Shown here piece after piece: positions 2,846-53,659 of a stretch of DNA of 64,000 nucleotides. The notes below the pieces were generated by a model, which did not search any database, had not been told where the DNA came from, and worked only from the letters and a program-made list of their open reading frames with translations. Origin of the DNA: Natronosalvus amylolyticus (lineage in GTDB: Archaea; Halobacteriota; Halobacteria; Halobacteriales; Natrialbaceae); NCBI RefSeq assembly GCF_024298845.1, contig NZ_CP101156.1, forward strand, positions 3,410,001 to 3,474,000. The letters are read 5' to 3'. The number at the start of each line of letters is the position of its first letter. Position 1 is the first letter of the stretch. The translations under genes were made by a program, and so were the position numbers.

Positions 2846-3049
2846 ATGGCCCGGCGACGCCGACGTTCGGCCGTCGATGCCGACACCGTTCAGCGACTGC
2901 GCGTCGGATTCGTCGTTCTCGTCGCTCTTTCGGGGACGATGATGGCGCTTCAGGGCGGGGCGTCACTCCCGGTCGCTGCGCTGGCGACGGGTATCGGAGC
3001 GCTCGCCGGAGGAGCGTTGATCTGGTATCTGACGTGGATCGTCAGCTAA
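2846..3049 (+). CDS. Small hypothetical membrane protein
   Basis: A 67-residue protein starting MARRRRRSAVDADT. It has a basic N-terminus followed by two hydrophobic stretches (about residues 17-35 and 40-64), so it is probably a two-pass membrane protein with a cytoplasmic N-terminus. I chose the ATG before the arginine run because the longer upstream extension reads like non-coding sequence. It stands alone between sdhA and a converging gene. I do not recognise the family. Confidence 0.55.
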   Translation: MARRRRRSAVDADTVQRLRVGFVVLVALSGTMMALQGGASLPVAALATGIGALAGGALIWYLTWIVS

Positions 3050-3186
3050 TAGCGATTCTCGGGAGTCTCGAGGCGATCGAGTGGAGACAGTACAGTTTTA
3101 TAGCATCTCGAAAGTTACAGGAATGACGATAACGGCCGAGAGACGTTCGATTTCAGCCAGGAACCGACGCTTGGCGGAGTGGTGAT

Positions 3187-3263
3187 ACGGTTTACTGTCG
3201 TCTCGTACCGGTGATTGCCGACCCGGTATGGGCGCTCATCGGTACGAAGTTACAGTAGACTGT
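3187..3263. repeat. 77-bp palindromic intergenic element, family 1, copy A
   Basis: The ends ACGGTTTACTGT and ACAGTAGACTGT are imperfect inverted repeats. A second nested inverted repeat, CGTACCGGTGATTGCC against GGCGCTCATCGGTACG, lies inside. Copies occur at 7863-7924 (left arm truncated) and 12303-12379 (full, also 77 bp). All three lie between genes. Copy A lies just past the stop of the minus-strand gene ending at 3272. It could be a transcribed hairpin or a MITE without its own transposase. Confidence 0.75.
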
Positions 3264-3271
3264 CTGAAGGA

Positions 3272-4228
3272 CTATCTCTCGAGGCGACGAATCCACAGGC
3301 CCGGCGTCTCGAGTTCGTCGTCGGTTGGCAACGATTCTGGCCCGTCCCAGACCTGGCTCGCGAACTCGAGGTCGCGGTGCTCGACGACCGTCTCGAAGAA
3401 GGCTTTTCCACGTTCGTACTGGCGCTGTTTCAGTCCAAGGCCGAGGAGCCGCCTGAACAGCTGCTGGAGCGGGCCGCGCCCCTGTCGCCTGGCGTCGAGT
3501 TTGCGTCGCAGGTCCTCGTACTCGTCGTCGAAGGCGTGATCCATCAGAAGTTCGGCGTACCCTTCGACCACGGTCATCGTGGCGTTGAGTTCGCGGAACG
3601 TATCGCGGTCGAACGCGCCCTCCGAAAGGGCGTCGATACCCGATTGCATACGTTCTTCGAGATGCGTCGACAGCCACGGTGCCGCGCCGAACTCCGCGGC
3701 GTGTGTCACCTCGTGGAAGGCGATCCAGCGACGGAATCGGTCGGGATCGACCTCGAGGACGTCTGCGGCGTTGAGAATGTTCGGCCGGACGAAGTAGAGG
3801 GCGTGGTCGTCGTCGGGGGTCTCCGCGAGCAACAGCGGATCGTACTGACCGAGAACGTTCCGGCCGAGGAAGGCGAGCAATACGGTCATCGTCCCGGTGT
3901 TGACCGTTCGAGCCACGCCGGGGAACGCGCCGAGTTGGTCTTCCATCGGGGCCATCACTCGCTCGAACGTTTCGATGTTGGCGTCCATCCAGTGATGTCG
4001 GTTCTGGATTTCGATCACCTCGGGGACGTCGAACTCGAGGCCTGCTGCCTCGCGCACCCCTTCGCGTGCGTCACGAACGTCTCGAGCGTAGGCGGCCTGC
4101 TCGCCCGGCTCGAGTGCAAGTGAGCCGGGGTCAGTCGAAGCTTTGGCTGCCTCGGCGGCGGCCTGCCAGTCGATGGCGTCGTCACCGGAGGCCTCGGCGA
4201 CCGCACGGACGCTACGATAGAGATTCAC
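3272..4228 (-). CDS. Zinc-dependent metalloprotease-like protein (F420-biosynthesis-associated family)
   Basis: A 318-residue protein. The central HEVTHAAEF (HExxH) is a zinc-metalloprotease signature, and the segment after it resembles a widely distributed archaeal/actinobacterial family annotated as zinc-dependent metalloprotease or F420-biosynthesis-associated protein. The substrate is unknown. I start at GTG 4228, giving VNLYRSVRAVAEASG, because residues further upstream are arginine-rich and unlike haloarchaeal protein. It ends next to palindromic element A. Family assignment is from memory of the motif and overall pattern. Confidence 0.75.
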   Translation of the reverse strand: MNLYRSVRAVAEASGDDAIDWQAAAEAAKASTDPGSLALEPGEQAAYARDVRDAREGVREAAGLEFDVPEVIEIQNRHHWMDANIETFERVMAPMEDQLGAFPGVARTVNTGTMTVLLAFLGRNVLGQYDPLLLAETPDDDHALYFVRPNILNAADVLEVDPDRFRRWIAFHEVTHAAEFGAAPWLSTHLEERMQSGIDALSEGAFDRDTFRELNATMTVVEGYAELLMDHAFDDEYEDLRRKLDARRQGRGPLQQLFRRLLGLGLKQRQYERGKAFFETVVEHRDLEFASQVWDGPESLPTDDELETPGLWIRRLER

Positions 4229-4395
4229 ACCAGCGATACGGGAAGCGCGGCCAAAAGGGTTCTGTCGCTGTCGACGACTCCGGCTATCGGTTTCCCACGG
4301 AGCCGTCACTCGCGGTCGGTACACTCGAGCGTCAGGGGGATACGTTGCTGTGTGTCACGAGACAGCACGTTGAAAATTCGGGTACGACAACTGTA

Positions 4396-4686
4396 TCAGG
4401 AGGTGATGATTTCGGGTTCGTCGTAGCCTTCCGCGCCCTCGTCGTCGTTGCCACGGCGTTTTTTAACTGCGACGGCGAGTGCGACGAGCGCAACGAGACC
4501 GATGACCGCCCCGATTGCGGAAGATTTTCCGCCTTCTTCGTCCGCGGCGACGGCTTCCTCCTCCCGATCCTCGCTTTCGCTTTCCTCGCTGTCGCCGATA
4601 GGGAGTCCGTCGCTGATCGTTTTCGGGCCGAACTGCGTGTTGCCGTCGAGGTGGAGTTCGACGAACGTGAATTTTTTACTACCCAT
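4396..4686 (-). CDS. Haloarchaeal hypothetical membrane protein
   Basis: A 96-residue protein starting MGSKKFTFVELHLDG. It has an acidic Ser/Glu-rich middle (about residues 35-55), one hydrophobic helix (about 60-77, IGAVIGLVALVALAVAV) followed by KKRRG, and an acidic tail. The N-terminal half is probably a beta-rich outside domain and the tail cytoplasmic. The start at the second methionine removes four residues of doubtful coding. It is divergent from the histidine kinase. Function unknown. Confidence 0.65.
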   Translation of the reverse strand: MGSKKFTFVELHLDGNTQFGPKTISDGLPIGDSEESESEDREEEAVAADEEGGKSSAIGAVIGLVALVALAVAVKKRRGNDDEGAEGYDEPEIITS

Positions 4687-4814
4687 GTGCGGATACACGT
4701 CGAGCGGTCATTTATGTATTGTGTCGAACATCACGACGGTCTCGAGAGGAGGTGGGAAAATTTCCGACCGAAAGCTGCCGGTATGTTTTAGTAAATCCCT
4801 CGAGAGTGAGGCCC

Positions 4815-6755
4815 ATGGGCTGGAACGTTACCTACCACCTCGTTCCGCTCGCCGTCGGCATCGTGACGACCGTGTTGGTGATGGGTGTCGTCTGGAAGCA
4901 CCGTCACAAAAACGAGGCGACGATCCTGTTTCTCCTGTTTGGCGGCATTCTCGGCTGGGCATCGGCAGCGGCGGTACAGATTGCGAGCACTGATCCTGTC
5001 CTCATCCGATTCGTCGATCGGTTTTTGATGGGATTCGTTTCAATCGTTGCCGTCTCGTGGTGTGCGTTTGCGATCAGTTACACAGAAAGGACCGAGTGGA
5101 TCAGTCCGGTGCCCGTTGCCCTGGCACTCGGTGTTCCTGTCCTCACACAGCTCGTCGTCTGGACGAATACCGCTCACGAACTGATGTGGCCTGCTGGCAC
5201 GCGAGTAACCGACGTAAACGGCCTCGTCCTCCCTGCGACGGAAACTGGCATCTGGTTCACTTGGGTACACGTTCCACACTCCTATGGCCTGTTATCTATC
5301 GGAGCCGTTCTCGTCGCCCGGTCAGCCATTCGAACCTGGCACGTGTATCGAGGCCAGGCGATTGCACTGCTGGTCGGAATGCTCGTTCCCCTCGTAGCAA
5401 ACGGCGCATTTTTGCTCGAGATTACTCGGATCGACTACACCCCGTTTGCGTTTACGATCAGTGCCCTCAGTATCGCCTGGGCGTTGTTTCGGTACGAATT
5501 TCTCAGCTTACTCCCGGTTGCGAGAGAGACCGTCGTCGAAGAGATGCGAGATGGTGTGATCGTCCTCGATCGAGACGACCGGATCGTCGATTACAACCGG
5601 GCGGCCGCTTCGGTCCTCTCAGAACCGTCGACGAGGAAATCAGCCATTGGGATGCCGGCCACTGCCGTGCTCCCGTTCGAACTGGTTTCGATAGTTTCCG
5701 AAGGTGGGCAGGGAACAGGTAACGGCACGACCCCCTCATCAGACCGTTCAACCGTGAGTGAGACACTGGCTGAAAACGGTGGATCTCGGTTCTCGTCAGC
5801 ACAGGGTCTCCGATCGATTGGCCTGCAGGCATCCGATATGGAGGATGTTCCCGACGACGATTCATCTCACCGTCGACAGTTTGAACATACCATTGGTGAT
5901 GAGACCGTTATCTATCGTCTCGACGCCGTCCCGATTTCGAACCACGATGGCGACAACACCGGCCGCATTCTCGTCTTGCAGGACATTACTGCGCTCAAAG
6001 AACGAGAAGCGGCCCTCCGGTCGTTGAGCGAGGAACTCGAGTTACTCAACCGGATCGTTCGCCACGATATTCAAAACGACATGAACGTTGTAGCTGGCTA
6101 CGCGGACTTGCTCGAAGAGCATCTCGAGACGGCACGCATGGATGGCGATATCGATTCGACGTACCAGGAGTATCTCGAACCGATTCAGTACAATACGACC
6201 CATACGATCGAGCTCACCGAACAGATCGGGACCCTACTCGAGGCAATTACGGCAACCGAGGGACTAGATGGTGCACCCGGCGATCACGGCGAGCCAAACA
6301 CCCTTCAGCTCGAGCCTATTGAACTCGGCCCGATGATCGAGCGCGAACTCGAGAAAGCGCGCACGGCGTTCAATCAGGCGACGTTCACAACAACGTATCG
6401 TGAATCGATCGAGGGAATCGCCGTGTATGGAACGCCGATGCTGTCTTCGGTGTTTTCGAACATCCTCTCGAATGCTGTTCGACACGCAGACAACGCACAG
6501 CCGCTGGTCCATCTCGAGACGGACGTTGGAGCGTCGTCGGTGACGATTCGAATTGCCGATGATGGGCCCGGCATCTCCGACGATAAAAAGGACGCTGTCT
6601 TCGGCCGGGGGGAACGCGGTCTCGACAGCCCCGGTAGCGGTATCGGTCTGTACCTCGTCCATCGGCTGACGACAGCGTTCGGTGGCTCGGTTCACATCGA
6701 GGACAACGAGCCTCGAGGGGCGGTGTTCGTCGTGACGCTCGAGCGCGCTTTATAA
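4815..6755 (+). CDS. Sensor histidine kinase with 7TM input, PAS, HisKA and HATPase domains
   Basis: A 646-residue membrane sensor. Residues 1 to about 230 form seven hydrophobic helices of the HisKA_7TM kind. A PAS region follows (MRDGVIVLDRDDRIVDYNRA), then the H-box VRHDIQNDMN with the phospho-accepting His near residue 417. The ATPase has an N-box (SNILSNAVRHAD) and G-boxes (DDGPGISD, GSGIGLYLV). No response regulator lies beside it, so its partner is elsewhere, as is usual for haloarchaeal kinases. The start is the ATG of MGWNVTYH, the first that gives a membrane-compatible N-terminus. Confidence 0.9.
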   Translation: MGWNVTYHLVPLAVGIVTTVLVMGVVWKHRHKNEATILFLLFGGILGWASAAAVQIASTDPVLIRFVDRFLMGFVSIVAVSWCAFAISYTERTEWISPVPVALALGVPVLTQLVVWTNTAHELMWPAGTRVTDVNGLVLPATETGIWFTWVHVPHSYGLLSIGAVLVARSAIRTWHVYRGQAIALLVGMLVPLVANGAFLLEITRIDYTPFAFTISALSIAWALFRYEFLSLLPVARETVVEEMRDGVIVLDRDDRIVDYNRAAASVLSEPSTRKSAIGMPATAVLPFELVSIVSEGGQGTGNGTTPSSDRSTVSETLAENGGSRFSSAQGLRSIGLQASDMEDVPDDDSSHRRQFEHTIGDETVIYRLDAVPISNHDGDNTGRILVLQDITALKEREAALRSLSEELELLNRIVRHDIQNDMNVVAGYADLLEEHLETARMDGDIDSTYQEYLEPIQYNTTHTIELTEQIGTLLEAITATEGLDGAPGDHGEPNTLQLEPIELGPMIERELEKARTAFNQATFTTTYRESIEGIAVYGTPMLSSVFSNILSNAVRHADNAQPLVHLETDVGASSVTIRIADDGPGISDDKKDAVFGRGERGLDSPGSGIGLYLVHRLTTAFGGSVHIEDNEPRGAVFVVTLERAL

Positions 6756-6760
6756 CCGAT

Positions 6761-6769
6761 TCTTTAAAA
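6761..6769 (+). promoter_or_regulatory. TATA-like box of the M42 peptidase gene
   Basis: TCTTTAAAA lies about 27 nt before the ATG at 6793. This is the spacing of a leaderless haloarchaeal transcript, with transcription starting at or just before the start codon. It overlaps the end of the kinase gene by only a few bases, so the peptidase probably has its own promoter. Confidence 0.55.
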
Positions 6770-6792
6770 CCGTCACCGTTCGAGCAGTACGT

Positions 6793-7851
6793 ATGGACAC
6801 AACCGCCCGCGACTTTCTGATCGAGTTGCTCGAGACCCCCTCTCCATCGGGATACGAAACCCGCGGTCAGCGCGTCTGGGTCGACTACGTCTCCCAGTTT
6901 GCCGACGACGTTCGAACCGACGCCTACGGGAACGCCATCGCCGTCCACGAGGGCGACCCGGACGGTCCCGAAGTCGTCCTGACGGGCCACGCCGACGAGA
7001 TTGGATTTATCGTCAAATCGATCGACGACGACGGGTTCATCCGCCCCGGTCGAATCGGCGGATCGGACCCGACGGTTTCCCAGGGCCAGCACGTCACGAT
7101 TCACGCCGCCGATGGCCCGGTCGAGGGCGTTATCGGCCAGACGGCCATCCACCTCCGGGAAGACGGCGAGGAACCCGACATGGAGGACCTCTGGATCGAC
7201 ATCGGTGCCGAAAGCGAGGAGGACGCAAAAGCCCTGCTCGAGGTCGGGGACCCGATCACGTTCTCCTCGAGCGTCTCGTGGCTCACCGAGAACCGACTCG
7301 CGGCCCGTGGGCTGGACAATCGCGTCGGGACGTGGGCGGCCGCCGAGGGTTTCCGACAGGCCGTCGAAGCGGGTACCGAAGCCACGGTGTACGCCGTTTC
7401 GACGGTTCAGGAGGAAGTCGGCGTCAAAGGCGCACAGATGGTCGGCTTCGACCTCGAGCCGGATGCCGTCGTCGTCGTCGACGTTGGTCACGCGGTCGAT
7501 TATCCGTCGGCTCCGAGCGAGAAAACGAGCCAGATGGAACTGGGCGGCGGGCCAGGGCTCGGTCGCGGCAGCACGAACCATCCGGTGATTTTCGAGGGGC
7601 TGCGAACCGTCGCCGACAGCGCCGAAATCGACGTCCAGATCGAGGCGCTCGGACTCGGGACGGGCACCGACGCCGACGGCTTCTTCACGGCCGCTGGTGC
7701 CATCCCGGCACAGGTCGTCAGTGTCCCCAACCGGTACATGCACACTCCAGTCGAAGTGATCGATACCGACGACCTCGAGGAGATCGCGACAATGCTCGGC
7801 CTGTTCGCGAGTCGGGCCCACGAGTTCGCCCCGTTCGAAGTCGACGTCTGA
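6793..7851 (+). CDS. M42 family metallopeptidase (aminopeptidase/endoglucanase family)
   Basis: A 352-residue cytosolic metallopeptidase of the TET/M42 type, which removes N-terminal residues from peptides. Expected two-metal ligands are visible: His in LTGHADEIGF, Asp in RGLDNRVG, the catalytic EE in VQEEVG, Asp in VVDVGH and a C-terminal His in NRYMHTPVE. The length is normal. It has its own TATA-like box. The exact peptide specificity cannot be read from the sequence. Confidence 0.92.
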   Translation: MDTTARDFLIELLETPSPSGYETRGQRVWVDYVSQFADDVRTDAYGNAIAVHEGDPDGPEVVLTGHADEIGFIVKSIDDDGFIRPGRIGGSDPTVSQGQHVTIHAADGPVEGVIGQTAIHLREDGEEPDMEDLWIDIGAESEEDAKALLEVGDPITFSSSVSWLTENRLAARGLDNRVGTWAAAEGFRQAVEAGTEATVYAVSTVQEEVGVKGAQMVGFDLEPDAVVVVDVGHAVDYPSAPSEKTSQMELGGGPGLGRGSTNHPVIFEGLRTVADSAEIDVQIEALGLGTGTDADGFFTAAGAIPAQVVSVPNRYMHTPVEVIDTDDLEEIATMLGLFASRAHEFAPFEVDV

Positions 7852-7862
7852 TACGGCCTGCT

Positions 7863-7924
7863 ATAACTGTTTTCCGGTGATTGTCGACTCGGAATGGGCA
7901 ATCACCGGTACGAGACGACAGTAA
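7863..7924. repeat. Palindromic intergenic element, family 1, copy B (one arm truncated)
   Basis: The core CCGGTGATTG ... CAATCACCGG is a perfect inverted repeat. The right arm GGTACGAGACGACAGTAA is the reverse complement of the left arm of copy A at 3.2 kb, giving about 27 matching bases through the core. The outer left arm has been lost and replaced by ATAACTGTTTT. It lies directly after the stop codon of the M42 peptidase gene. Confidence 0.7.
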
Positions 7925-7971
7925 CCCGAATAATCGCAGCCTATAACCAGCCCGAGCGGCTAGTTCGAGTG

Positions 7972-8235
7972 CGTACCATAAGTCCCCGGCCGAGTTAACC
8001 CACTTCGGGTGCGATGACAGCCCGGCGAACCCAGGTACGGTACATACGTTGACGGCTTCGGCCGTCCCACTCGAGGGTGGTGTCCCTCGCACGCGGAGTC
8101 GGCGTCAGTCGGCTCGGCACCTGGAGGCGCGTTGCGCTTCCCGCCCGGCACGAGGGTTAGCCAGCAGACGCGGCATGCCGCCACGGGATGATGCTGGACG
8201 TTAGTGTTCCGGGTGCCATTTTCAGTGACGTTTTG
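7972..8235 (+). ncRNA. Candidate structured non-coding RNA
   Basis: There is no credible protein in the 407 bases before endonuclease III. A TATA-like CCTATAACC (7940-7948) would start a transcript near 7972. The segment then holds several stems: ACCC/GGGT, GACGGC-TTCG-GCCGTC (a UUCG tetraloop), CGAGGG/CCCTCG, GGCGC/GCGCC-like and the perfect palindrome GCGGCATGCCGC. T-runs follow (CATTTTC, GTTTTGTTT). It lacks the SRP RNA helix-8 motif and RNase P core motifs. It might instead be a decayed mobile element. The strand is inferred only from the promoter-like box. Confidence 0.35.
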
Positions 8236-8258
8236 TTTGGCCACTCGAGAGTAAGGGT

Positions 8259-9086
8259 ATGGACGAACAGCCACAAGCTGACCCCGAACCCGACGTCAAC
8301 ATCAGCGGCGGCGTCGCCGGTGGCGGTGAACTGGCTCCGTTCGAGACGGTCGCTATCGACACGCGAGCCGGGCGGGTCGTCGCTCGGTTGGGCGAGTTGT
8401 ACTGGGAGAAAACCTACGGCGGCCGGGACGCCTTCGAGTGTCTCGTGCGGACGATTCTCAGCCAGAACACGAGCGACGTCGCGAGTCAACCGGCCCACGA
8501 CGCCTTACTCGAGCGCTATGCCGACGACGAAGCGGACCTCGTGAACGCCCTCGCGGATGCCGACCACGACGAACTGGCCGAAACGATCAGCGGGGCTGGA
8601 CTCTACAACCAGAAATCGAAGATGATCCGCGGTGCGGCCGCGTGGGTCAGTGAGGAGTTCGGCTCCGAGGCGGCGTTCGACGCGTTCGTCACGGACGAGG
8701 ACCCGAATGAGGTGCGAGAGACGTTGCTCGAGGTTCACGGTGTCGGACCGAAAACGGCCGATTGCGTTCTCCTGTTCGCTGGCGGGCAACCGGGCGTTTT
8801 TCCGGTGGACACACACGTCCACCGCATCGCTCGTCGGCTCGGAATCGCCCCAGCGGATGCCGACCACGAAGGCGTTCGGGAAGCGCTCGAGGACGCTATT
8901 CCGCCCGAAATGTGTGGGTTTGGTCACACCGCGATGATCCAGTTCGGGCGCGAATACTGCACGGCTCGAGCGCCGGCGTGTCTCGAGGACCCCGACGCGT
9001 GCCCGATGGCAGACCTGTGTGAGCAGGTGGGCGTCTATCCGGAGACTGGCGAGTTCGTCGACCCGGCCGAGGCCCCCGAGTCGTAG
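8259..9086 (+). CDS. nth: Endonuclease III-type DNA glycosylase/AP lyase
   Basis: A 275-residue base-excision repair enzyme that removes oxidised pyrimidines. The helix-hairpin-helix EVHGVGPKTADCVLLF contains the catalytic Lys, and PVDTHVHRIARRLG has the catalytic Asp. The C-terminal Fe-S cysteines are CTARAPAC, DAC and CPMADLC. The spacing is C-x6-C-x6-C-x5-C, longer in the middle than the usual x2. About 35 acidic residues precede the catalytic core. It is a single gene with no operon partner. Confidence 0.92.
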   Translation: MDEQPQADPEPDVNISGGVAGGGELAPFETVAIDTRAGRVVARLGELYWEKTYGGRDAFECLVRTILSQNTSDVASQPAHDALLERYADDEADLVNALADADHDELAETISGAGLYNQKSKMIRGAAAWVSEEFGSEAAFDAFVTDEDPNEVRETLLEVHGVGPKTADCVLLFAGGQPGVFPVDTHVHRIARRLGIAPADADHEGVREALEDAIPPEMCGFGHTAMIQFGREYCTARAPACLEDPDACPMADLCEQVGVYPETGEFVDPAEAPES

Positions 9087-9163
9087 TCGGTGGGGACCCG
9101 CTCGAGTGTACAGGGGGTACTGGCAGTGAGAAGCCGCTCGAGTGTGTGACCTCACGAATCCGG

Positions 9164-9577
9164 TCAGTTTGCGAGCAAGACGACCGCGAGGATGGCAAAG
9201 CCAATGCCGGCGGCGTTTTTCAAGGTGAGCGATTCGCCGAGTACCAGAATTCCGATGAGTGCTGCGACTACGAAATAGAGGGCGGAGATGGTAGCGACGA
9301 CGCCGACCCGGCCCGCGCTCAGTCCGGTGTAGAAGGCGACAGCGCCGATGCCGGCGAAGACACCCGCACCGAGTGCGTAGGCCACACCGGTTCGCTCGAG
9401 CGCCAGCGGTTCGCCCTGTGCAGCGACGTAGCCGACGGCGATGACGACGCTTGCGGCGTACGAAAGGATCATGGCGAGTTCGGGGGCGATGGTTCGTGTC
9501 GCCTCGTTCGCGAGAACGGTCCACAGACCCCAGCCGAGCATAGCGAGGACGGCGAAGGTGATTGCGTGTTGGCTCAT
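9164..9577 (-). CDS. EamA-family small transporter
   Basis: A 137-residue protein with five hydrophobic helices. It forms a single EamA (drug/metabolite transporter) unit, half the size of the usual ten-helix protein, so it should act as a dimer. The late motif VLGESLTLKNAAGIGFAILAVVL is typical of EamA. The start MSQHAITFAVLAMLGWG puts the first membrane helix at the very N-terminus. Substrate unknown. It is convergent with nth. Confidence 0.8.
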   Translation of the reverse strand: MSQHAITFAVLAMLGWGLWTVLANEATRTIAPELAMILSYAASVVIAVGYVAAQGEPLALERTGVAYALGAGVFAGIGAVAFYTGLSAGRVGVVATISALYFVVAALIGILVLGESLTLKNAAGIGFAILAVVLLAN

Positions 9578-9611
9578 ACCAAGTGGACTCGATAACCGAA
9601 CCAATAGTTTG

Positions 9612-11423
9612 CTATTCGTTCCACCGGGCGTCAGCCAGCGTTCGCTGGACCACGTCGTTTCCGACGGCTTCGGCTAGCGTTTCGAAGCCGGCGCGTTCGG
9701 CACGGTCACTCGCGTTGGCAACCAGCCTCGAGACGATGAACTCCGGCGTCGAGCGACCGACGGTGCCAAACCGCGGCTGGTAATCCACCTCGAGTTCGAG
9801 GTCGGGGTTCAGACCTTCGGCGAAGATACCATCGACGCGGGCTTGGGGTGGTAACGGCTCGAGGTCGTCTGCGAGGTGGGTGACGAACACGCCGAGTGCG
9901 CCCTGGTTGACCGCTAGCTGGACGAGGCCGTGGAGCAGGTTGGCCGCGCTACCAGGTTCGGTGATTGCTTCGAACTCGTCGACGAGCATGAGCGTCTGCC
10001 CGTCAGTGGAAAGCGGTGGCACGATCGAGCGCAGCGTCGACTCGAGGACGCCGGCGTTGAAACTCGCGTGTCGACGGTGGAAGACGAGCGAATCGACGGG
10101 CGGGATTTCGGCGCGTTCGGCCGGCACCGGGAGCCCCATCGTGGCGAGCAAGACGACCTGACACAGCGTCTCGAGCAGCGTCGTCTTTCCGCCGCTGTTC
10201 GCACCCGTGAGGACGGTAATCCGTTCGTCCCCGGGGAGCGCCCACTCGTCGTTCGAGCCCGTATCATCGTCGCTGACGGGGAGGGAAAAATCTTCGTCCG
10301 ACAGGGAGTGTTCGCCGAGCGTGTAGGTTATCGGCTGGACGGTTTCGTCCGCTCGAGTGGCGAGCGAGAGATTCCGGGCGTCGACGACCGAGAGTGTCGG
10401 GGCGGCTCCGTCGTCGGAACGGAACGTCGGCCGCGTGCAGTCGTACGCCAGGGCAAACCGTGCAAGCGAGAGGTGAAAGGCAATGTCGTCGACCGCGCTA
10501 ATGGCGCCGTCGACTGCGCTCTCGGCGTCCTCGAGTGTCTCCTCGAGTTCCGTGCGAACCGTCGATTCGCGTTCATCCACGGCCTCGGTCAGATCCGAAC
10601 GGAGGGTTCTGAGGGTCCCGCCGACGAAGTCCGTCGCATCGGTTGGGTCGCTGGGCATCGCCTCGCGCACCCGGTCGATGGTTGCCTGCGTCTCGCTTTG
10701 CAGTCGGTCTTCGAATGCGTCGCGGAAGGCACTCACGTCGCCGACTCCGTCCGAGCGGAGGTCTTCGATAATCGCCAACGCGTTGGCGTCCATGTCCTCG
10801 ACGGCACCCAGCGTGGTTCGCAACCGGTCGAGTTCCTCGTCGGCACCCTCGCGAACGCGGCTGTCTTCCAGCGCACCGAGTGCCGTCGCCGCATTCTCGA
10901 GCGCGTCCGTCTCGAGTTCGGCAATCGCCGCGAACGGGCCGTCTTCGACGCCGGTGTCGAGTAGCGCGATAGCGGCTTTGACTGCTGCGTACGCGCTTCC
11001 GTCGCGGTCGTCGTACCGTTCGTACGCCTCGAGCACACGGTTCTGTTCGGCCTCCTCGAGTCGTTCCCAGGCGTCTCGAGCGGCCAGCACGTCGTCCAAT
11101 CGGTCGTTCATTTCGGCCTGGGTAGACAGTGGGGTCAGCACCCTGATTCGGTCGGCGGCCCGTTCGGTGACGGCGTACTCGACGGCCAGGTCGAGCAGTT
11201 CCTTGTACGCCGCTCGAGCATCGCTCGTCGCGAGCGTATCGATGCCTTCACCGCCGATGGCTCGCCGAAGAATACGGGTCGCCCGACCCCGCGGGAGGCC
11301 CGCATCGGCGAGGGTCCGGACGTCGCCGCTTTCGATGGCCTCGATTGCTCGTTCGGTGCCCAGTTCCTCGACGAGTGTCTCCCGGGTTTTCGGTCCCACT
11401 CCCCAGTACGCCTCGAGTCGCAT
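9612..11423 (-). CDS. Helix-hairpin-helix protein with MutS-type ATPase domain
   Basis: A 603-residue protein. Residues 1-50 resemble HhH motifs (YWGVGPKTRETLVEELG and LADAGLPRGRATRILRR). A long helical, coiled-coil region follows. The C-terminal third is a MutS-type ATPase: Walker A TGANSGGKTTLL, Walker B LMLVDEFEAIT and a conserved FVTH. The mismatch-recognition and connector domains of MutS1 are absent, so it is closer to the MutS2/MutS-related class acting on recombination structures or unusual DNA. The start is the ATG of MRLEAYWGVG. It is divergent from the J-domain ferredoxin gene with about 125 bp between them. Confidence 0.85.
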   Translation of the reverse strand: MRLEAYWGVGPKTRETLVEELGTERAIEAIESGDVRTLADAGLPRGRATRILRRAIGGEGIDTLATSDARAAYKELLDLAVEYAVTERAADRIRVLTPLSTQAEMNDRLDDVLAARDAWERLEEAEQNRVLEAYERYDDRDGSAYAAVKAAIALLDTGVEDGPFAAIAELETDALENAATALGALEDSRVREGADEELDRLRTTLGAVEDMDANALAIIEDLRSDGVGDVSAFRDAFEDRLQSETQATIDRVREAMPSDPTDATDFVGGTLRTLRSDLTEAVDERESTVRTELEETLEDAESAVDGAISAVDDIAFHLSLARFALAYDCTRPTFRSDDGAAPTLSVVDARNLSLATRADETVQPITYTLGEHSLSDEDFSLPVSDDDTGSNDEWALPGDERITVLTGANSGGKTTLLETLCQVVLLATMGLPVPAERAEIPPVDSLVFHRRHASFNAGVLESTLRSIVPPLSTDGQTLMLVDEFEAITEPGSAANLLHGLVQLAVNQGALGVFVTHLADDLEPLPPQARVDGIFAEGLNPDLELEVDYQPRFGTVGRSTPEFIVSRLVANASDRAERAGFETLAEAVGNDVVQRTLADARWNE

Positions 11424-11548
11424 ACCTTGCAGGTTCGAAGGCAGTACCTTGAAGCCACCGCTCGCGCTCTCGAGAACGGTTGCTGTCGAATCCGGCAGCC
11501 CTGTACGATGGAGCAACACTATTGACGACGCATCCGCTACCCTCTCGC

Positions 11549-12175
11549 GTGGAGTCCCCGTTCGACGTCCTGGGAATTGATACGGATGCAGACCACGACG
11601 ACATCGAGCGAGCCTTCAGACGCCGTATCAAGGAGGTTCATCCAGACCAGGGTGGTTCAGTCGAGGAGTTTCGACTGGTTCACGCCGCCCGTGAGCAACT
11701 GCTCTCGAAGCACCTCGAGGGTGTCGACCCCAGCGATATCGGCGTCGACGGCAACGGAACGGAACCGGTCGCCCCGACAATCCAGTACCTGAATTTCGAA
11801 GTGTTCGAAGACTACGGCTGGTCGCTCGAGGACGAGGACCTCTTCGAAAAAGCGGCTGACGCCGACCTCGACTCGAGTGACTACGGCCGCTTCGTTGTCG
11901 ACCCGTCCGAAAGCGTACTCGAGGCAGCCGAAAACCGTGGCTTCGAGTGGCCGTATGCGTGTCGCGGCGGTGCCTGTGCGAACTGTGCCGTCGCCGTTCA
12001 GGATGGGGACTTATCGACGCCGGTCAATCACGTCCTTCCCGACGAGATGGTCGACTGTGGGATTCGTCTCTCGTGTGTGGCCGAACCGACGACCGACGAA
12101 TCGAACGTTATTTTCAACGTCAAGCAACTGCCGGAACTCGACGAGTTGCGATTACCGCCCCGCCCGTTCGAGTGA
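11549..12175 (+). CDS. J-domain/2Fe-2S ferredoxin fusion protein
   Basis: A 208-residue protein. Residues 1 to about 55 are a DnaJ-type J domain (SPFDVLGIDTDADHDDIERA, then the HPD of EVHPDQGG). The C-terminal half is a plant-type 2Fe-2S ferredoxin with ligand pattern CRGGACANC plus a later Cys in LSCVAEP. This fused ferredoxin is characteristic of haloarchaea. It is an electron carrier whose J domain may let Hsp70 assist Fe-S assembly or stability (inference). I start at GTG 11549, directly before the J domain. Preceding residues do not look conserved. Confidence 0.9.
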   Translation: MESPFDVLGIDTDADHDDIERAFRRRIKEVHPDQGGSVEEFRLVHAAREQLLSKHLEGVDPSDIGVDGNGTEPVAPTIQYLNFEVFEDYGWSLEDEDLFEKAADADLDSSDYGRFVVDPSESVLEAAENRGFEWPYACRGGACANCAVAVQDGDLSTPVNHVLPDEMVDCGIRLSCVAEPTTDESNVIFNVKQLPELDELRLPPRPFE

Positions 12176-12302
12176 ATAGGCGACGGGTTTCTGCTTTGCA
12201 AAAATGGTGACCCGAGAGGGGCTTTGAGTTACAGCATTCTCGTTCGAGTGTGACCTCGAGGTGCCCATTGATTGAAGGATTACCTGACGGCGGTGTTTTC
12301 AT

Positions 12303-12379
12303 ACGGTTTCCTGTCGTCTCCTCCCCGGTAATTGCCCATAGGGGTCGGCAATCGCCAGTAAAAAGTTACAGGAGACCGT
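12303..12379. repeat. 77-bp palindromic intergenic element, family 1, copy C
   Basis: The ends ACGGTTTCCTGT and ACAGGAGACCGT are inverted repeats. The size is the same 77 bp as copy A at 3187. Relative to A, a base in the left arm changes from A to C and its pairing base in the right arm changes from T to G, so the stem is kept. The core CCGGTAATTGCC pairs with GGCAATCGCC. It lies immediately past the stop of the minus-strand gene ending at 12381, the same position relative to its neighbour as copy A. Confidence 0.75.
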
Positions 12380-12380
12380 C

Positions 12381-13325
12381 TCAGTCTCGATTTCGGTTCG
12401 GCGTCCACTCCTGACAGGCGTCCATGTCGTCCATCGTTTCATCGAAGCGTCCACAGTATGGTATGATGTTGCCGTTGGACCGGACGTAATCGAAGTGTCG
12501 GCAGTTCCCACAGTAGCGGTCGGTCGGTTCCGGCGTCTCCGGCCCGTCGACGATAGCGGCGTCATAGCCGTTACTTGTGTCGTCTAGCGGCGAACTGATG
12601 TCGTTCGTCGCCGCGCCGCCATCGCTCGCAGGGGTGGTCCTGCCGGCTGAGAGTGGACCGCCGGTGTTCGATTTCTGCCCTGTCTGTGTCCTCGAGGTTG
12701 CTTCGGCCTTGCTGGTCGGCTCACTCACGTCGTTCGTCTGGGTTTCGACGTCCCCGTCCGGCGTGTTACCGAAAAAGCCCATGCTGCTGAAGCCGCCGCT
12801 CTGTGATTCGACCTCGACGACTTTCGTCTGGTTACGCCGGGTGACGTTCATCTCGAGCATGCCACCTGGGTCGTTTCTGGTTTTGAAGTTGACGACGGCG
12901 GTGAACAGACACCACATAGCAGTAAACAGGCCGAGCAGGTAGACGACCGAGACGTGCATCGTGAGGTTGTCGCCGTGGCCACGCCAGTGCGCTGGATAGG
13001 CGTGCCAGAACAGTGCGACGCCGAGTAGACAGATACTCGTCCCGATAACGGCGGCGGCCTGAATTCGGCGGCTGGCCGGCAGCACCGTAAAGACGCCGAG
13101 TAAGGCGAGTGGAACGCCGGTTCCAGAGAGAACTCCGGCCCAGAGGACGGGGCCGTACTGATCGGCGAACGCACTCGAGAACAGATCGGTCGTCGCAACG
13201 AGAACGGCGACGACGGACAGTATCGCCCCCACGGCGACGAGTGCCGTTCCGGCGTACAGCCGCCGGAGGCTCGCCCCCTTTGCCGTGCCATCGTATACCT
13301 CCGTCAGGCTGGTCATACGCGACAT
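12381..13325 (-). CDS. Haloarchaeal membrane protein with C-terminal zinc-ribbon-like tail (DUF7139-like)
   Basis: About 314 residues. The N-terminal half has four or five membrane helices (about residues 28 to 155). It is followed by a Thr/Ser/Asp-rich linker and a C-terminal CGNCRHFDY ... CGRF ... CQEW segment. The cysteine pattern suggests a small metal-binding module in the cytoplasm. I recall the arrangement as a haloarchaeal family (DUF7139) of unknown role. The start is uncertain between the second and third Met. Confidence 0.7.
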   Translation of the reverse strand: MSRMTSLTEVYDGTAKGASLRRLYAGTALVAVGAILSVVAVLVATTDLFSSAFADQYGPVLWAGVLSGTGVPLALLGVFTVLPASRRIQAAAVIGTSICLLGVALFWHAYPAHWRGHGDNLTMHVSVVYLLGLFTAMWCLFTAVVNFKTRNDPGGMLEMNVTRRNQTKVVEVESQSGGFSSMGFFGNTPDGDVETQTNDVSEPTSKAEATSRTQTGQKSNTGGPLSAGRTTPASDGGAATNDISSPLDDTSNGYDAAIVDGPETPEPTDRYCGNCRHFDYVRSNGNIIPYCGRFDETMDDMDACQEWTPNRNRD

Positions 13326-13441
13326 AAAGGGCTCATTCCACAAAACGATACGTCAGACATTGTATCGAAATTTGATACGTATGTGGCGAGGGAGGCGGAG
13401 GAAACGAAAGCTTGAATCGATGGGCTCCCAAACCACCCGCT

Positions 13442-21466: not shown

Positions 21467-23641
21467 ATGGCACGCGATACTCCGGTTAGCGATCGATTAC
21501 CGACTCGTACGGACGAACACACGAGCGAACGCTTGCACCGACGTTCAGTCCTGAAATACGCCGGCACAGCAGTGGGTCTCTTTGCGGGCGCAGGCACAGC
21601 AACAGCGACTGCCGACCTCGACGATGCAGTAAACATCGTCGACGCTGGTGCTGACCCGACTGGTTCGACCACGATCAACAGCGTCCTCGAGTCCGTCCAC
21701 GATGACGGTGAAACGGTTTACTTCCCACCCGGCGAATACCGACTCGACCCGTTTCGAGACGGTGCGAACAATTGGTCGTGGATCGGTGAGGACGCGACCA
21801 TCGTCGTCCCGAGGCACGTCACCAGTCGATATCTCCACTTCACCGGACGTGGGTGGTCGATCGATGGTATCGATGTCGACCTCTCCGCGAACGGTGCCGC
21901 CCCGACTAACTTCTTCCACGGCGGGGACTGGGCCGTTCGGAACCTCGAGTTTATCGGCCAGATGAGTGACCCTGGCGAGCGCGGGGGGTCGAGCCTCCTC
22001 TATCTGGATGCAGACCGTGGCACTACCGGTCTACTCGAGAACGTCCGGGCGATGGATGGCTCGGCCGACCCGGATAGCTCCTCGAACCGCGGCGGACTCC
22101 GCATCGTCGGCTCCGAAGGTGATATTACCCTCAGAAACGTGGCCGTTTCCGGCTTTGCGAACAATTCGATGTACTTCCACAATATGCCGGCGCACCTGAC
22201 GATAGACTCGTGTTACCTCGAGGATACGAACACAGGGCTGCGAATCGGTGGCAACACGACGGTTCGAAACACGGTCTTCAACCAGTCACGCGCCCCGCGG
22301 GCACGATGGTCCGGCGGTCGCGCTGCCCGCGGCATCTGGATCAATTCAAACGGCTCGACGAGCGGTGACATCACCATCGAAGGCTGTGAGTTCGTGATGG
22401 GCGAACCGGCCGGTGCCCACGCGATTTACACGTCGAACGCTCACGAGGGCATCACGATTCGTGACTGTCGCATCCGGCAAGATCGGAACTTCTTCGCGAT
22501 CCAACTTGATGAAGGTGGCTCCGGACACACGATCATCGAGAACGTTTCGATTACCGGTGACGCAAATCGCGCAGGGATTTATTTGCGTGGCCGGAGCGGT
22601 GCCCGCTTTCGAAACCTCTGTCTACAAAAAGCGGGTGACGGCGTTCGCATCCGTAGCTCGAGCAACGTCCGTCTCGAGAACTCGACGATCAACGTCGACG
22701 GCACGACGATCAGCGGCAGTCCATCGACCAGCGGGATTTCGACCAGCGGCACCTGCCCGGTCCCCGACGGCGACTGGAAACCATCGGAAGCTTCCGAAGA
22801 AGACGTCGACGACTCGGGAGCGTCAAACGACGATGGGCCGCGCGAGAACGAAACCGTCCTCCGTCTCGAGGGCGAGTGTGACTACCGAATCGGGGTCACG
22901 GGCGACATCCGGCCTGCTCCCGAAATCGCTCAGTGGGTCACCGAGGGCGAGCAGTACAGTGATGGTGAAGCCGACTGGTATCTCACGGGATCGTGGACAG
23001 AGTGGTACTTCACCGGGGACCTCGAGACGTTTGACGTGGATTCGACGGCCGACCTTCGTGTCTATCTCGACGGCGAAGAAGTCGATCCTGACACACTCAC
23101 GAACCCGGCCGACGACGGGCCCGCGGAATCGACCATCAGGCTCGAGGGCGCGTGCGACTACCGAATCGGCGTCACAGGCGACATTCGCCCACACGACGAC
23201 CTGGCACAGTACGTGACCGAAGGCGAGCAGTACGGCGATGGCGAGGTAGACTGGTACCTAACCGGTTCGTGGACCGAGTGGCACTTCACCGGCGACATCG
23301 AGACGTTCGAGGTGGACTCGACTGCCGACCTCCGCGTCTTCATCGACGGTTCGGCAGTCGAACCCGGCGACGTCGTCACCGAGGCCCAGGAGTCGACGAT
23401 TCGGCTCGAGGGGACCACGGATTACCACATCGAAGTCAGCGGCGACATCCGGCCCGCTCCAGAAATCGCACAGTGGGTCTCCGAAGGCGAGCAGTACGGT
23501 GACGGCGAGGCCGACTGGTATCTCACGGGATCGTGGACGGAGTGGCACTTCACCGGCGACATCGAGACGTTCGAGGTGGACTCGACCGACGACCTGACCG
23601 TCTCCGTCGACGGCATCGAGGTCAACACGAGTCGACTCTAA
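21467..23641 (+). CDS. Tat-exported beta-helix protein with three C-terminal repeats
   Basis: A 724-residue secreted protein. A twin-arginine signal (LHRRSVLKYAG, about residue 24-34) is followed by a hydrophobic stretch and ATATA. Residues about 55-440 are a right-handed parallel beta-helix of the pectate-lyase type, starting VNIVDAGADPTGSTTINSVL with later rungs such as ITIEGCEF and ITIRDCRI. An acidic linker leads to three repeats beginning near residues 463, 556 and 644. Each holds DYxIxVxGDIRP, EGEQYxDGExDWYLTGSWTE and a strand ending in DG. The repeats may bind carbohydrate or the cell surface (inference). The enzyme activity is not evident. Confidence 0.88.
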   Translation: MARDTPVSDRLPTRTDEHTSERLHRRSVLKYAGTAVGLFAGAGTATATADLDDAVNIVDAGADPTGSTTINSVLESVHDDGETVYFPPGEYRLDPFRDGANNWSWIGEDATIVVPRHVTSRYLHFTGRGWSIDGIDVDLSANGAAPTNFFHGGDWAVRNLEFIGQMSDPGERGGSSLLYLDADRGTTGLLENVRAMDGSADPDSSSNRGGLRIVGSEGDITLRNVAVSGFANNSMYFHNMPAHLTIDSCYLEDTNTGLRIGGNTTVRNTVFNQSRAPRARWSGGRAARGIWINSNGSTSGDITIEGCEFVMGEPAGAHAIYTSNAHEGITIRDCRIRQDRNFFAIQLDEGGSGHTIIENVSITGDANRAGIYLRGRSGARFRNLCLQKAGDGVRIRSSSNVRLENSTINVDGTTISGSPSTSGISTSGTCPVPDGDWKPSEASEEDVDDSGASNDDGPRENETVLRLEGECDYRIGVTGDIRPAPEIAQWVTEGEQYSDGEADWYLTGSWTEWYFTGDLETFDVDSTADLRVYLDGEEVDPDTLTNPADDGPAESTIRLEGACDYRIGVTGDIRPHDDLAQYVTEGEQYGDGEVDWYLTGSWTEWHFTGDIETFEVDSTADLRVFIDGSAVEPGDVVTEAQESTIRLEGTTDYHIEVSGDIRPAPEIAQWVSEGEQYGDGEADWYLTGSWTEWHFTGDIETFEVDSTDDLTVSVDGIEVNTSRL

Positions 23642-27253: not shown

Positions 27254-27302
27254 TGGGTCCCCTTCGTTCGGGGTCGTTTCACTCCTCGAGAGTTTCCTCG
27301 TG

Positions 27303-27331
27303 GCAAAAACGGGCCGGGCGCGATTGTGAAC
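27303..27331 (-). repeat. Partial copy of the tRNA-Lys 3' end
   Basis: CGGGCCGGGCGCGATT (27310-27325) is identical to the 3' end of the adjacent tRNA-Lys gene, with GCAAAA before it and GTGAAC after it also matching apart from single changes. The copies are direct repeats 134 bases apart. Such 3'-end duplications mark where an integrative element has used the tRNA as its attachment site. No integrase remains, so this is probably a scar. Confidence 0.6.
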
Positions 27332-27443
27332 TACGCCGAGACGTTCCTGCTCGCCTCACTCCGTTCGGCTCCGCGGGCTGCGACTCGTCTAGTTCAAATC
27401 GCTCTAGCCGCTTTGCTCCTCGCGTAATTGCTCGGAGCAAAAG

Positions 27444-27517
27444 CGGGCCGGGCGCGATTTGAACACGCGACCGTCTGATTAAGAGTCAGACGCTCTGCCT
27501 AACTGAGCTACCGGCCC
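27444..27517 (-). tRNA. tRNA-Lys (anticodon CTT)
   Basis: The minus strand gives GGGCCGGTAGCTCAGTTAGG at the 5' end, a GTCTGA/TCAGAC anticodon stem with loop CTCTTAA, a T loop TTCAAAT and an acceptor strand CCGGCCC plus discriminator G. All four arms pair. The anticodon CTT reads lysine AAG. CCA is not encoded. There is no intron. A partial copy of its 3' end lies 134 bases downstream on the same strand. Confidence 0.97.
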
Positions 27518-29595: not shown

Positions 29596-29736
29596 GCTAC
29601 CCACCAGGTGTGGCGGACTCTTAATTCTTAGTCAGACGCGCGTCCCGTTCGGCCGTGGTCTGGCTCGGACGATTCACCGTCTCGGAGGGTTTGTTTTCGT
29701 TGTCAGCGGTGGGACGGTTCGATCGCTGCTCAGGAA

Positions 29737-29812
29737 GTAGCCAGTGAAAGTCATTGCACACCCGATCGCAAGCGTGCGTCGGACTAGGTGTGTAAATCGT
29801 TTCACTGGCTAC
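29737..29812. repeat. 76-bp palindromic intergenic element, family 2, copy 1
   Basis: GTAGCCAGTGAAA and TTTCACTGGCTAC are perfect 13-bp terminal inverted repeats. The inside (GTCATTGCACA ... GGTGTGTAAATCG) also partly pairs. A second 76-bp copy is at 53245-53320. At the eighth position of the arms this copy has a G-C pair and the other a T-A pair, so the stem is conserved while the sequence changes. It lies before a small membrane-protein gene. Confidence 0.8.
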
Positions 29813-29886
29813 AATAGTTACACCACTCCGATTACCGCGTTTGGAGGGCCGATCGACCACCTCCAAAACCGCAACAATCAACGACT

Positions 29887-50378: not shown

Positions 50379-51077
50379 ATGCGTCCAACAGATACGACTC
50401 AATCACGACGGAACGTACTACTCGGAACCGCGTCTATCGGTGCGCTTGCGCTCGCTGGCTGTCTCGGTGATGACGATGATGAGGGTGCTGGCGACGATCA
50501 CGACGATCATGACGATCATGATGACCACGACGACGACCATGACGACCACGATGACCACGATGACCACGACGACCACGATCATGAACACAGTGAGTCCGAA
50601 GTAGCCGAATCGGAGTTCGACCATATTGGAATCGAGGAGTTCAGCCTGCACGATGACCACGGGGATCGAATCGCGTGGGTCCACGGCGATCACTGGGATG
50701 GACGCCTTCCACAGATTCCAGTCGATGGGTCGGTCTCACTCGAGGCAAATGTGGAAACGGAAACGGGTGAGGAACTGACTTTCGAGGACGAGTACGAACT
50801 GCGCATTGCCTACGCACACGATGCTCCCGAAGGCGCACTCTCATTCGATACTCACGGAAAGGATGTCTCACTTGGTGGTGAGGAAACCGGTGTCACTGAT
50901 ATCGTCTTCTTGATATGGCACGATGATCATGCAGATTATCAGTCGCCTGGGCTTACCGCCCAAGTCGTGGATGAGGTTGACGACGACCACGATCACGATC
51001 ACGACCACGACCACGACCACGACGACGACCACGACGACGACCACGACCACGACGACGACCACGACCACGATCACTAA
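50379..51077 (+). CDS. His/Asp-rich Tat lipoprotein with a zinc-locus domain
   Basis: A 232-residue exported lipoprotein. It has a twin-arginine signal SRRNVLLG and lipobox LAGC (Cys28). Residues 31-70 and 200-232 are almost pure Asp/His (HDDHDDHDD; DHDHDHDHDH), able to bind many Zn ions. The domain between (about 84-197) has WVHGDHWDGRLPQIPVDGSV, YAHDAPEGALSFDTHG, and WHDDHAD. The same domain is found at residues 163-282 of the zinc-binding protein encoded at 53660. It probably traps zinc at the cell surface and passes it to the importer (inference). Confidence 0.85.
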   Translation: MRPTDTTQSRRNVLLGTASIGALALAGCLGDDDDEGAGDDHDDHDDHDDHDDDHDDHDDHDDHDDHDHEHSESEVAESEFDHIGIEEFSLHDDHGDRIAWVHGDHWDGRLPQIPVDGSVSLEANVETETGEELTFEDEYELRIAYAHDAPEGALSFDTHGKDVSLGGEETGVTDIVFLIWHDDHADYQSPGLTAQVVDEVDDDHDHDHDHDHDHDDDHDDDHDHDDDHDHDH

Positions 51078-51142
51078 TCATACCCAATCAGCTATTTCGG
51101 TCAGGTTGAAGGGGTGTTTTCTGTCGATTTTGCAGAAATATT

Positions 51143-51540: not shown

Positions 51541-51840
51541 AGAAACCCTACGACTTCACTCCTGTCTCTTACCCACAAATGGCGCCGCTGTCGTGAGTGA
51601 ACAAGATCGAGGAATGCAACCGAAACTCCCGTTTTTCACGGGTACAATCAATCTCGAGGATCGATTCCGTCGATCCCGCCTACCGGTGTTCATCCACCCC
51701 AACCACTGGCATCATCGCTCGAATCGCTCCGAACCTCGAGTGTCCGGGCACAACTCGAGTTCGAAAGCGGCTGAAACGCCTGTTTGGAACGCCGTGGACT
51801 TATGGGTAAGAGACAGGACTTCACTCGTGGGAGGATGCTA
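51541..51840. mobile_element. IS200/IS605-like right-end hairpin interrupted by an insertion
   Basis: If the 255-bp element below and one copy of its target duplication are removed, the joined sequence reads GAAACCCTACGACTTCACTC then GTGGGAGGATGCT. This is the kind of hairpin that ends haloarchaeal IS200/IS605 and TnpB elements. The left half of the stem is CCCTACGA and the right half TCGTGGG. No tnpA or tnpB is left. It matches the scar at 2669. Confidence 0.5.
51562..51816. mobile_element. 255-bp MITE with 10-bp target duplication
   Basis: Terminal inverted repeats are CTGTCTCTTACCCACAA on the left and the complement of CTGTCTCTTACCCATAA on the right. The flanks GACTTCACTC (51552-51561 and 51817-51826) are identical 10-bp direct repeats. 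The CTGTCTCTTA end and a 10-bp duplication recall the IS4-type ISH8 group (from general knowledge). The inside has no transposase, so it would need one in trans. The intact duplication means the insertion is recent relative to decay of the neighbouring elements. Confidence 0.85.
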
Positions 51841-53220: not shown

Positions 53221-53244
53221 AAGAGCCGTTCGCGGTCATTATAG

Positions 53245-53320
53245 TAGCCATTGAAAGTCATTGCACATCTTATCGCATGTTGGCGTCGCGATAGGTGTGT
53301 GAATCGTTTCAATGGTTACT
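53245..53320. repeat. 76-bp palindromic intergenic element, family 2, copy 2
   Basis: The ends GTAGCCATTGAAA and TTTCAATGGTTAC pair with one mismatch, and the stem extends outward by TATA on both sides (53241-53324). The inside (GTCATTGCACA ... GGTGTGTGAATCG) matches copy 1 at 29737 in most positions and has the same length. It lies after the MFS gene and before the zinc importer operon. The remaining 330 bases up to 53660 are AT-rich with no recognised gene. Confidence 0.8.
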
Positions 53321-53659
53321 ATAGTTTTCATGGGCAGTATTTTCAGCAGAGTTGGTGTATGAATACGAATATTTCAACAGAACCGGAATTTCCATAGGCG
53401 GTACAGCGCACGAACTCCGATCTGTGAAATCGGGGTTGTTGACGGTGATATTGTATTGAGGCGGTACTCGAGAATTGGTCGAGAACACTCAAAATTTCAT
53501 TGCAATTGGCTCCCGCAAGGAACCGTTGTACTCTCTCTCTCTCGTCGATCTCGAACTCGAGGGAAGAATTACCAAAATAGCGACTCGAACTCCCCAGGAT
53601 TATTAAACCAACCAATTTAGATAATAACTCTTTTATCGGTGAGCCGATTTCATTCGGGT

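Follow-up and report, generated by a model that had tools for sequence, protein, structure and literature searches.

The 64,000-nucleotide stretch of Natronosalvus amylolyticus DNA analyzed here (the window) carries three copies, A, B and C, of a palindrome. Judged by its sequence, it belongs to a MITE-like, non-autonomous family of transposable elements, 79-80 bp long, whose inverted ends are slightly asymmetric. We consider it very probable that this element is moved by a transposase supplied in trans, is directed to GAC-TSA-GTC targets, is retained at stop codons by selection and evolves by template switching. In outline, the element is a nearly pure hairpin of 79-80 bp, conserved at its left and right ends, which differ slightly, and the putative transposase would insert it at the palindromic GAC-TSA-GTC, where a 3-bp TSA duplication results. 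TGA stops preceded by C match this target, and insertion there restores the stop codon so that the gene survives; through target choice and purifying selection, surviving copies would thus concentrate at gene ends. Template switching from arm to arm would then, in place, homogenize the arms and invert the core. Such a mobile element could spread through compact genomes, with stop codons as landing sites where it does no harm. In the following, G000 is the genome from which the window comes (4.2 Mb, with the window on its main contig), G003 and G004 are congeners, and G018 belongs to another genus.

Anatomy and gene context of the three copies

A search with copy A as query returned 35 matches in the genome with E values from 2.3e-34 to 9.6e-4, and the three palindromes reported by the first-pass annotation are therefore real and far beyond chance. 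Their limits, given there as 3187-3263, 7863-7924 and 12303-12379, were corrected to 3186-3264, 7852-7931 and 12302-12380, and copy B, described as truncated, proved to be full length with one diverged arm. The compensated pair that distinguishes A from C (A-T versus C-G) was also confirmed. The window contains these three copies only. Their occurrence within 9 kb needs no special cause, since about 60 copies in 4.2 Mb predict, by rough estimate, about half such a tight triple by chance.

With its left arm at left, the canonical 79-bp copy reads TACGGTTTACTGT-CGTCTC-TTACCGGTGATTGCC-core-GGCAATCACCGGTAAAAAGTTACAGCAGACCGTA. The arms pair, with mismatches at an internal GTC versus AAC stretch and at one or two more positions. 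The element is short and non-coding with inverted ends (TACGG..CTGT) at both sides, and the asymmetry between left and right ends is found again in other genera, in subfamilies with a different inner-stem sequence. Length was nearly constant: among 93 end pairs no more than 157 bp apart in a contig scan, 74 delimited 79-80 bp. The predicted RNA fold of copy A is -41.6 kcal/mol (z -5.8), and young G003 copies have predicted folds with z near -7, both as RNA and as DNA. An Rfam scan of the window returned one tRNA only, and the palindromes matched no curated RNA family.

Copy A (79 bp, 3186-3264, plus strand) has its left arm at left and its core in plus orientation (GCCGACCCGGTATGGGC type). It is flanked on both sides by TGA (3183-3185 and 3265-3267, plus strand) and lies 7 nt from the stop of a zincin-like metallopeptidase gene (PF10103; 3272-4228, minus strand). 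Copy B (80 bp, 7852-7931, minus strand by arm orientation) directly follows a gene of the M42 peptidase family (PF05343; 6793-7851, plus strand), whose TGA stop at 7849-7851 (plus strand) is the surviving target-site triplet; the opposite side has decayed to AAT. Copy C (79 bp, 12302-12380, plus strand), in which the core is inverted relative to its own arms, lies between a TCA at 12299-12301 (plus strand) and a second TCA, read on the plus strand, at 12381-12383. The latter is, on the minus strand, the TGA stop of a DUF7139/DUF7140 gene (12381-13343, minus strand), the end of which is thus the target duplication. The reported placement of the palindromes at gene ends was in this way upheld, with B and C abutting TGA stops and A close to one.

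Copy number and distribution

The genome-wide search proposed by the first-pass annotation was performed with a profile of 29 aligned copies, which is essentially a sequence model as it holds 3 base pairs only. The profile gave 103 both-strand matches in G000, representing about 60 distinct places, and an excess of copies at gene ends was found. The copies were scattered singly across the genome. Of 81 genomes sampled within the taxonomic family, 40 had profile matches (E≤1e-5). Within the genus, the distribution was patchy, with no copies in three of seven congeners and many in G003 and G004. The G003 copies are near-identical and have intact duplications, which point to recent movement in this genome. 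A limited search of the open-access literature returned no description of the palindrome family.

Large related subfamilies in other genera (L200-L229 from G018, and L230-L309) share the ends and the 3-bp duplication and differ in their inner stems; in G018, each strand has 186 matches to the ends. Variants of 137 bp (L204 and L216) resemble 80-bp copies in which one arm has taken up a second, small sequence.

Target duplication and empty sites

Outside TACGG...CCGTA, the copies are bordered by a direct repeat of TGA or TCA, rarely TTA. An exact TNA duplication was present in 148 of 205 distinct copies (TGA or TCA in 143 of the 148), and the two sides did not match exactly in the remaining 57; in the contig-scan set, 80 of 95 copies had an exact duplication. 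Of 32 one-base mismatches between the two sides, eight were TGA versus TCA, a change that lets the hairpin pair through the duplication. The logo of 106 reconstructed empty sites was the palindrome GAC-TSA-GTC.

Comparison of sister species revealed natural empty sites. At the site of copy C, G004 has no element, and its orthologous gene finishes there with one TCA (the gene's TGA stop); G004 copies in L414 and L137 are absent from G000 (L051 and L030), where one TCA or TGA is found. That TSA is present only once at these empty sites supports insertion, and the duplication has a fixed length, as in MITEs. The insertion of copy B is common to G000 and G004; it was not seen in G001, G002, G006 or G007, in which the gene ends at the same place.

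Core inversion and arm evolution

The centre of the hairpin was found in both orientations. In G003, arms that hardly differ enclose either GCCGACCCGGTATGGGC or the exact reverse complement of it, both orientations were also seen by eye in other subfamilies, and the overall ratio was 89 to 42 among 131 copies. A tie of core orientation to the strand of the target duplication or to gene sense, suggested by the first copies, was dropped, as no significant association with duplication strand was detected in the 131 copies (Fisher P 0.09).

Fifteen insertions shared by G000 and G004 were compared, of which L010 did not span the element (its core was not flipped by eye). At two of the 14 spanned insertions, copy B and L050, the core was inverted between the two genomes, with the pairing of L050, like that of L012 and L047, resting on weaker flank identity. 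Cores are thus inverted in situ; gene conversion by a different copy may be an alternative source of inverted cores. These shared insertions provide a site series for measuring hairpin-templated inversion in archaea.

Compensated changes were not in excess among the 29 own-genome copies (28 to 265 of 500 shuffles reached the observed value), and RNAalifold recovered only a 3-bp stem from the same copies. Between subfamilies, double changes exceeded all 200 shuffles (193 versus a maximum of 131, and 132 versus a maximum of 119) in comparisons uncontrolled for relatedness, and template switching would also explain them. In a published account (PMC8604942), template switching between inverted repeats results in arm homogenization and spacer inversion, both of which are seen in these hairpins, although the process is described there in yeast genes and not in a mobile element. 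We infer that template switching probably causes the core flips and the copying between arms.

Insertion at stop codons

The association with gene ends was examined in G000, G003, G004 and G018. The target duplication coincided exactly with an in-frame stop codon in 42 of 106 copies, compared to expectations of 19.0 from the TSA sites in the intergenic regions concerned and of 26.0 after weighting by a target motif learned from the non-stop insertions. The observed 42 was not reached in 200,000 and 400,000 draws. The bias toward gene ends is real. Taken singly, only G000 had a clear motif-weighted excess (24 versus 12.4 expected), with 8 versus 5.8 in G003 (P 0.09), 5 versus 2.9 in G004 (P 0.075) and 5 versus 4.9 in G018 (P 0.86). 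The weighted excess was also strong within each orientation class having a 3' end. Since an insertion breaks the open reading frame, insertions within genes were counted on rebuilt empty sites: 42 of 109 were at stops, 61 were intergenic and 6 were inside called genes, two of the latter no more than 30 nt from the gene end. The family offers natural insertions of hairpins into 3' UTRs, which, with sister-species empty sites as controls, make effects on transcript ends testable.

Genes were called by a simple, purpose-built codon-usage caller, which missed a reading frame that apparently ends at 3049 near copy A. For the stop-codon test, 106 of the 109 copies were taken, leaving out L032 and L069 (without recognizable duplication) and a G018 copy in L200 (one flank without a called gene). 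Two copies had been removed earlier as the same insertions as L010 and L021 (L139 and L144), and the G000 set of 59 does not include L030, into which another element has inserted and split it. Copies from the other genomes were the best-scoring or first-listed ones, chosen by strict end patterns, with 20 loci giving 21 copies in G003, 20 loci giving 19 in G004 and 30 loci giving 12 in G018.

Search for a mobilizing enzyme

DDE transposases ordinarily make short duplications at symmetric targets, and an IS5-family subgroup (IS1031-like) makes 3-bp TNA duplications. The 3-bp duplication of the palindrome family suggests a DDE-type transposase, presumably acting in trans. The likeness to the IS1031-like elements lies in the TNA duplication, but no such transposase could be linked to the palindromes. 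No autonomous element or transposase with the family ends was detected in 2.44 Mb of collected sequence, in which end pairs 400-3500 bp apart were neighbouring short copies; a 2860-bp end pair in L237, considered as a longer element, was resolved into two separate copies. At PF01609 transposase loci of four genomes, the ends differed from those of the family. Solo ends in G000, G002, G003 and G004 (20 loci) were mostly decayed or variant copies, and long open reading frames at three of these loci included no recognized transposase beside the end. Plasmid and phage records gave no match to copy A, and viral contigs gave 20 single-end matches with no paired ends. The putative transposase of the family is a clear target for genetics.

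Relationship to known elements

MITEs are short, non-coding elements present in many copies, with target duplications, terminal inverted repeats and assumed mobilization in trans (PMC3119063). The palindrome family shares all of these features, and the first-pass suggestion that the copies could be MITEs that favour gene ends is borne out by the inverted ends, the 3-bp duplication, the empty sites, the patchiness and the near-identical young copies in a relative. By contrast to MITEs, no parent transposon with matching ends was found in the 2.44 Mb or at the PF01609 loci, a single hairpin makes up the whole element, and its 3-bp TSA duplication arises at a palindromic target, often at stops, around a core that occurs both ways. 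The fixed length (79-80 bp in 74 of 93 pairs), unusual for a MITE, is a point against this assignment. A more far-reaching proposal, that these are transposase-less hairpin transposons of fixed 80-bp length, is offered tentatively and is rather less likely than otherwise. Here the stop codon would be a safe harbour (the TSA target duplicates TGA, giving harmless entry at the gene end), templated switching would invert the core, copy the arms and create subfamilies, and about half of the sampled taxonomic family would carry one and the same 80-bp frame around unrelated inner stems.

The nearest published elements, from a survey of MITEs, PATEs and SMRs in Haloquadratum (PMC3119063), are SMR-A and SMR-B of Haloquadratum walsbyi, which have inverted repeats over about 80-110 bp (HqIRS41 is 80 bp), are unrelated to known transposons and are called "enigmatic" in their mobilization. 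The palindrome family resembles them in size range, inverted repeats and enigmatic mobilization. However, SMRs are described there as lacking a target duplication, with PATEs and IS605 elements as the targets of SMR-A, whereas our family duplicates TSA and lies mostly outside genes, often at stop codons; membership in the SMRs was rejected on the duplication. PATEs, which are palindrome-associated and tied to IS605 (PMC3119063), are likewise palindromic, transposase-free and haloarchaeal, but they are without terminal inverted repeats and target duplications, and membership was rejected because the palindrome family has both.

Alternative explanations

The placement at gene ends could reflect selection for the hairpin in mRNA, with the palindromes serving as functional RNA elements that protect or terminate 3' ends. 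The strong predicted hairpins, that of copy A among them, and the stop-codon excess beyond the target motif in G000 are in its favour. This explanation is nevertheless quite improbable, given that compensatory changes are not in excess among the 29 own-genome copies, core orientation is not significantly tied to the duplication strand, 13 of the 106 copies lie between two gene starts, and three of seven congeners lack the family. A further possibility is that the insertion machinery itself has evolved to target stop codons as safe harbours, beyond recognition of the short motif. The 42 stop-codon hits against 26.0 expected after weighting would fit such targeting, but the young G003 copies exceed expectation only slightly and G018 shows no excess, so that survival bias is enough and the proposal is unlikely. 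As the weighted excess is clear in G000 only, motif choice combined with purifying selection is the likeliest cause of the gene-end placement, over a function at mRNA ends, and much of the bias would be due to these two factors.

Bacterial REP/BIME elements are extragenic hairpins, often just after stops, that make no target duplication and are paired or arrayed. The first-pass annotation had likened the placement of the palindromes to theirs; a REP/BIME-like nature would imply small hairpins spread by a RAYT (Y1 HUH) enzyme and kept at 3' ends by protein binding or mRNA stabilization. Extragenic hairpins near stop codons, the many copies and the lack of a classical autonomous partner agree with this comparison. 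The exact 3-bp duplications, the greater length of 79-80 bp and the singly scattered copies without paired arrays contradict it, and Y1 transposition is not known to make target duplications; membership was rejected on the duplication and the scattered copies, and we regard a REP/BIME-like origin as extremely improbable. Site-specific recombination of a circularized element at the TSA core (CCGTA-TSA-TACGG with GAC-TSA-GTC), rather than DDE transposition, is very unlikely. The two partners would each be palindromic about a core of 3 bp, and the TGA versus TCA mismatches would be consistent with such an exchange, but these mismatches are also expected from arm homogenization, no recombinase was linked to the family, and duplications of this kind are, as noted, ordinary products of DDE transposases. 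Insertion of a MITE-like element by a trans-acting transposase remains our preferred reading.

Other repeats in the window

A second family of short inverted repeats, with AGTAGCCAGTGAAA ends, is present in the window at 29736-29819 and 53243-53326 and at no fewer than 40 places in the genome; it is inserted inside two copies of the palindrome family (L013 and L030). Positions 22860-23628 hold three copies of a direct repeat of about 229 nt, 78-79% alike and at spacings of 276 and 264 nt, and a 51-nt direct repeat (27275-27459, 78% alike) lies beside a tRNA gene (27444-27517, minus strand). Two clusters of periodic repeats of 9 and 12 nt were found at 50439-51091. Inverted 32-nt arms (81% complementary, 221 nt apart) at 51547-51831 are perhaps another short mobile element.
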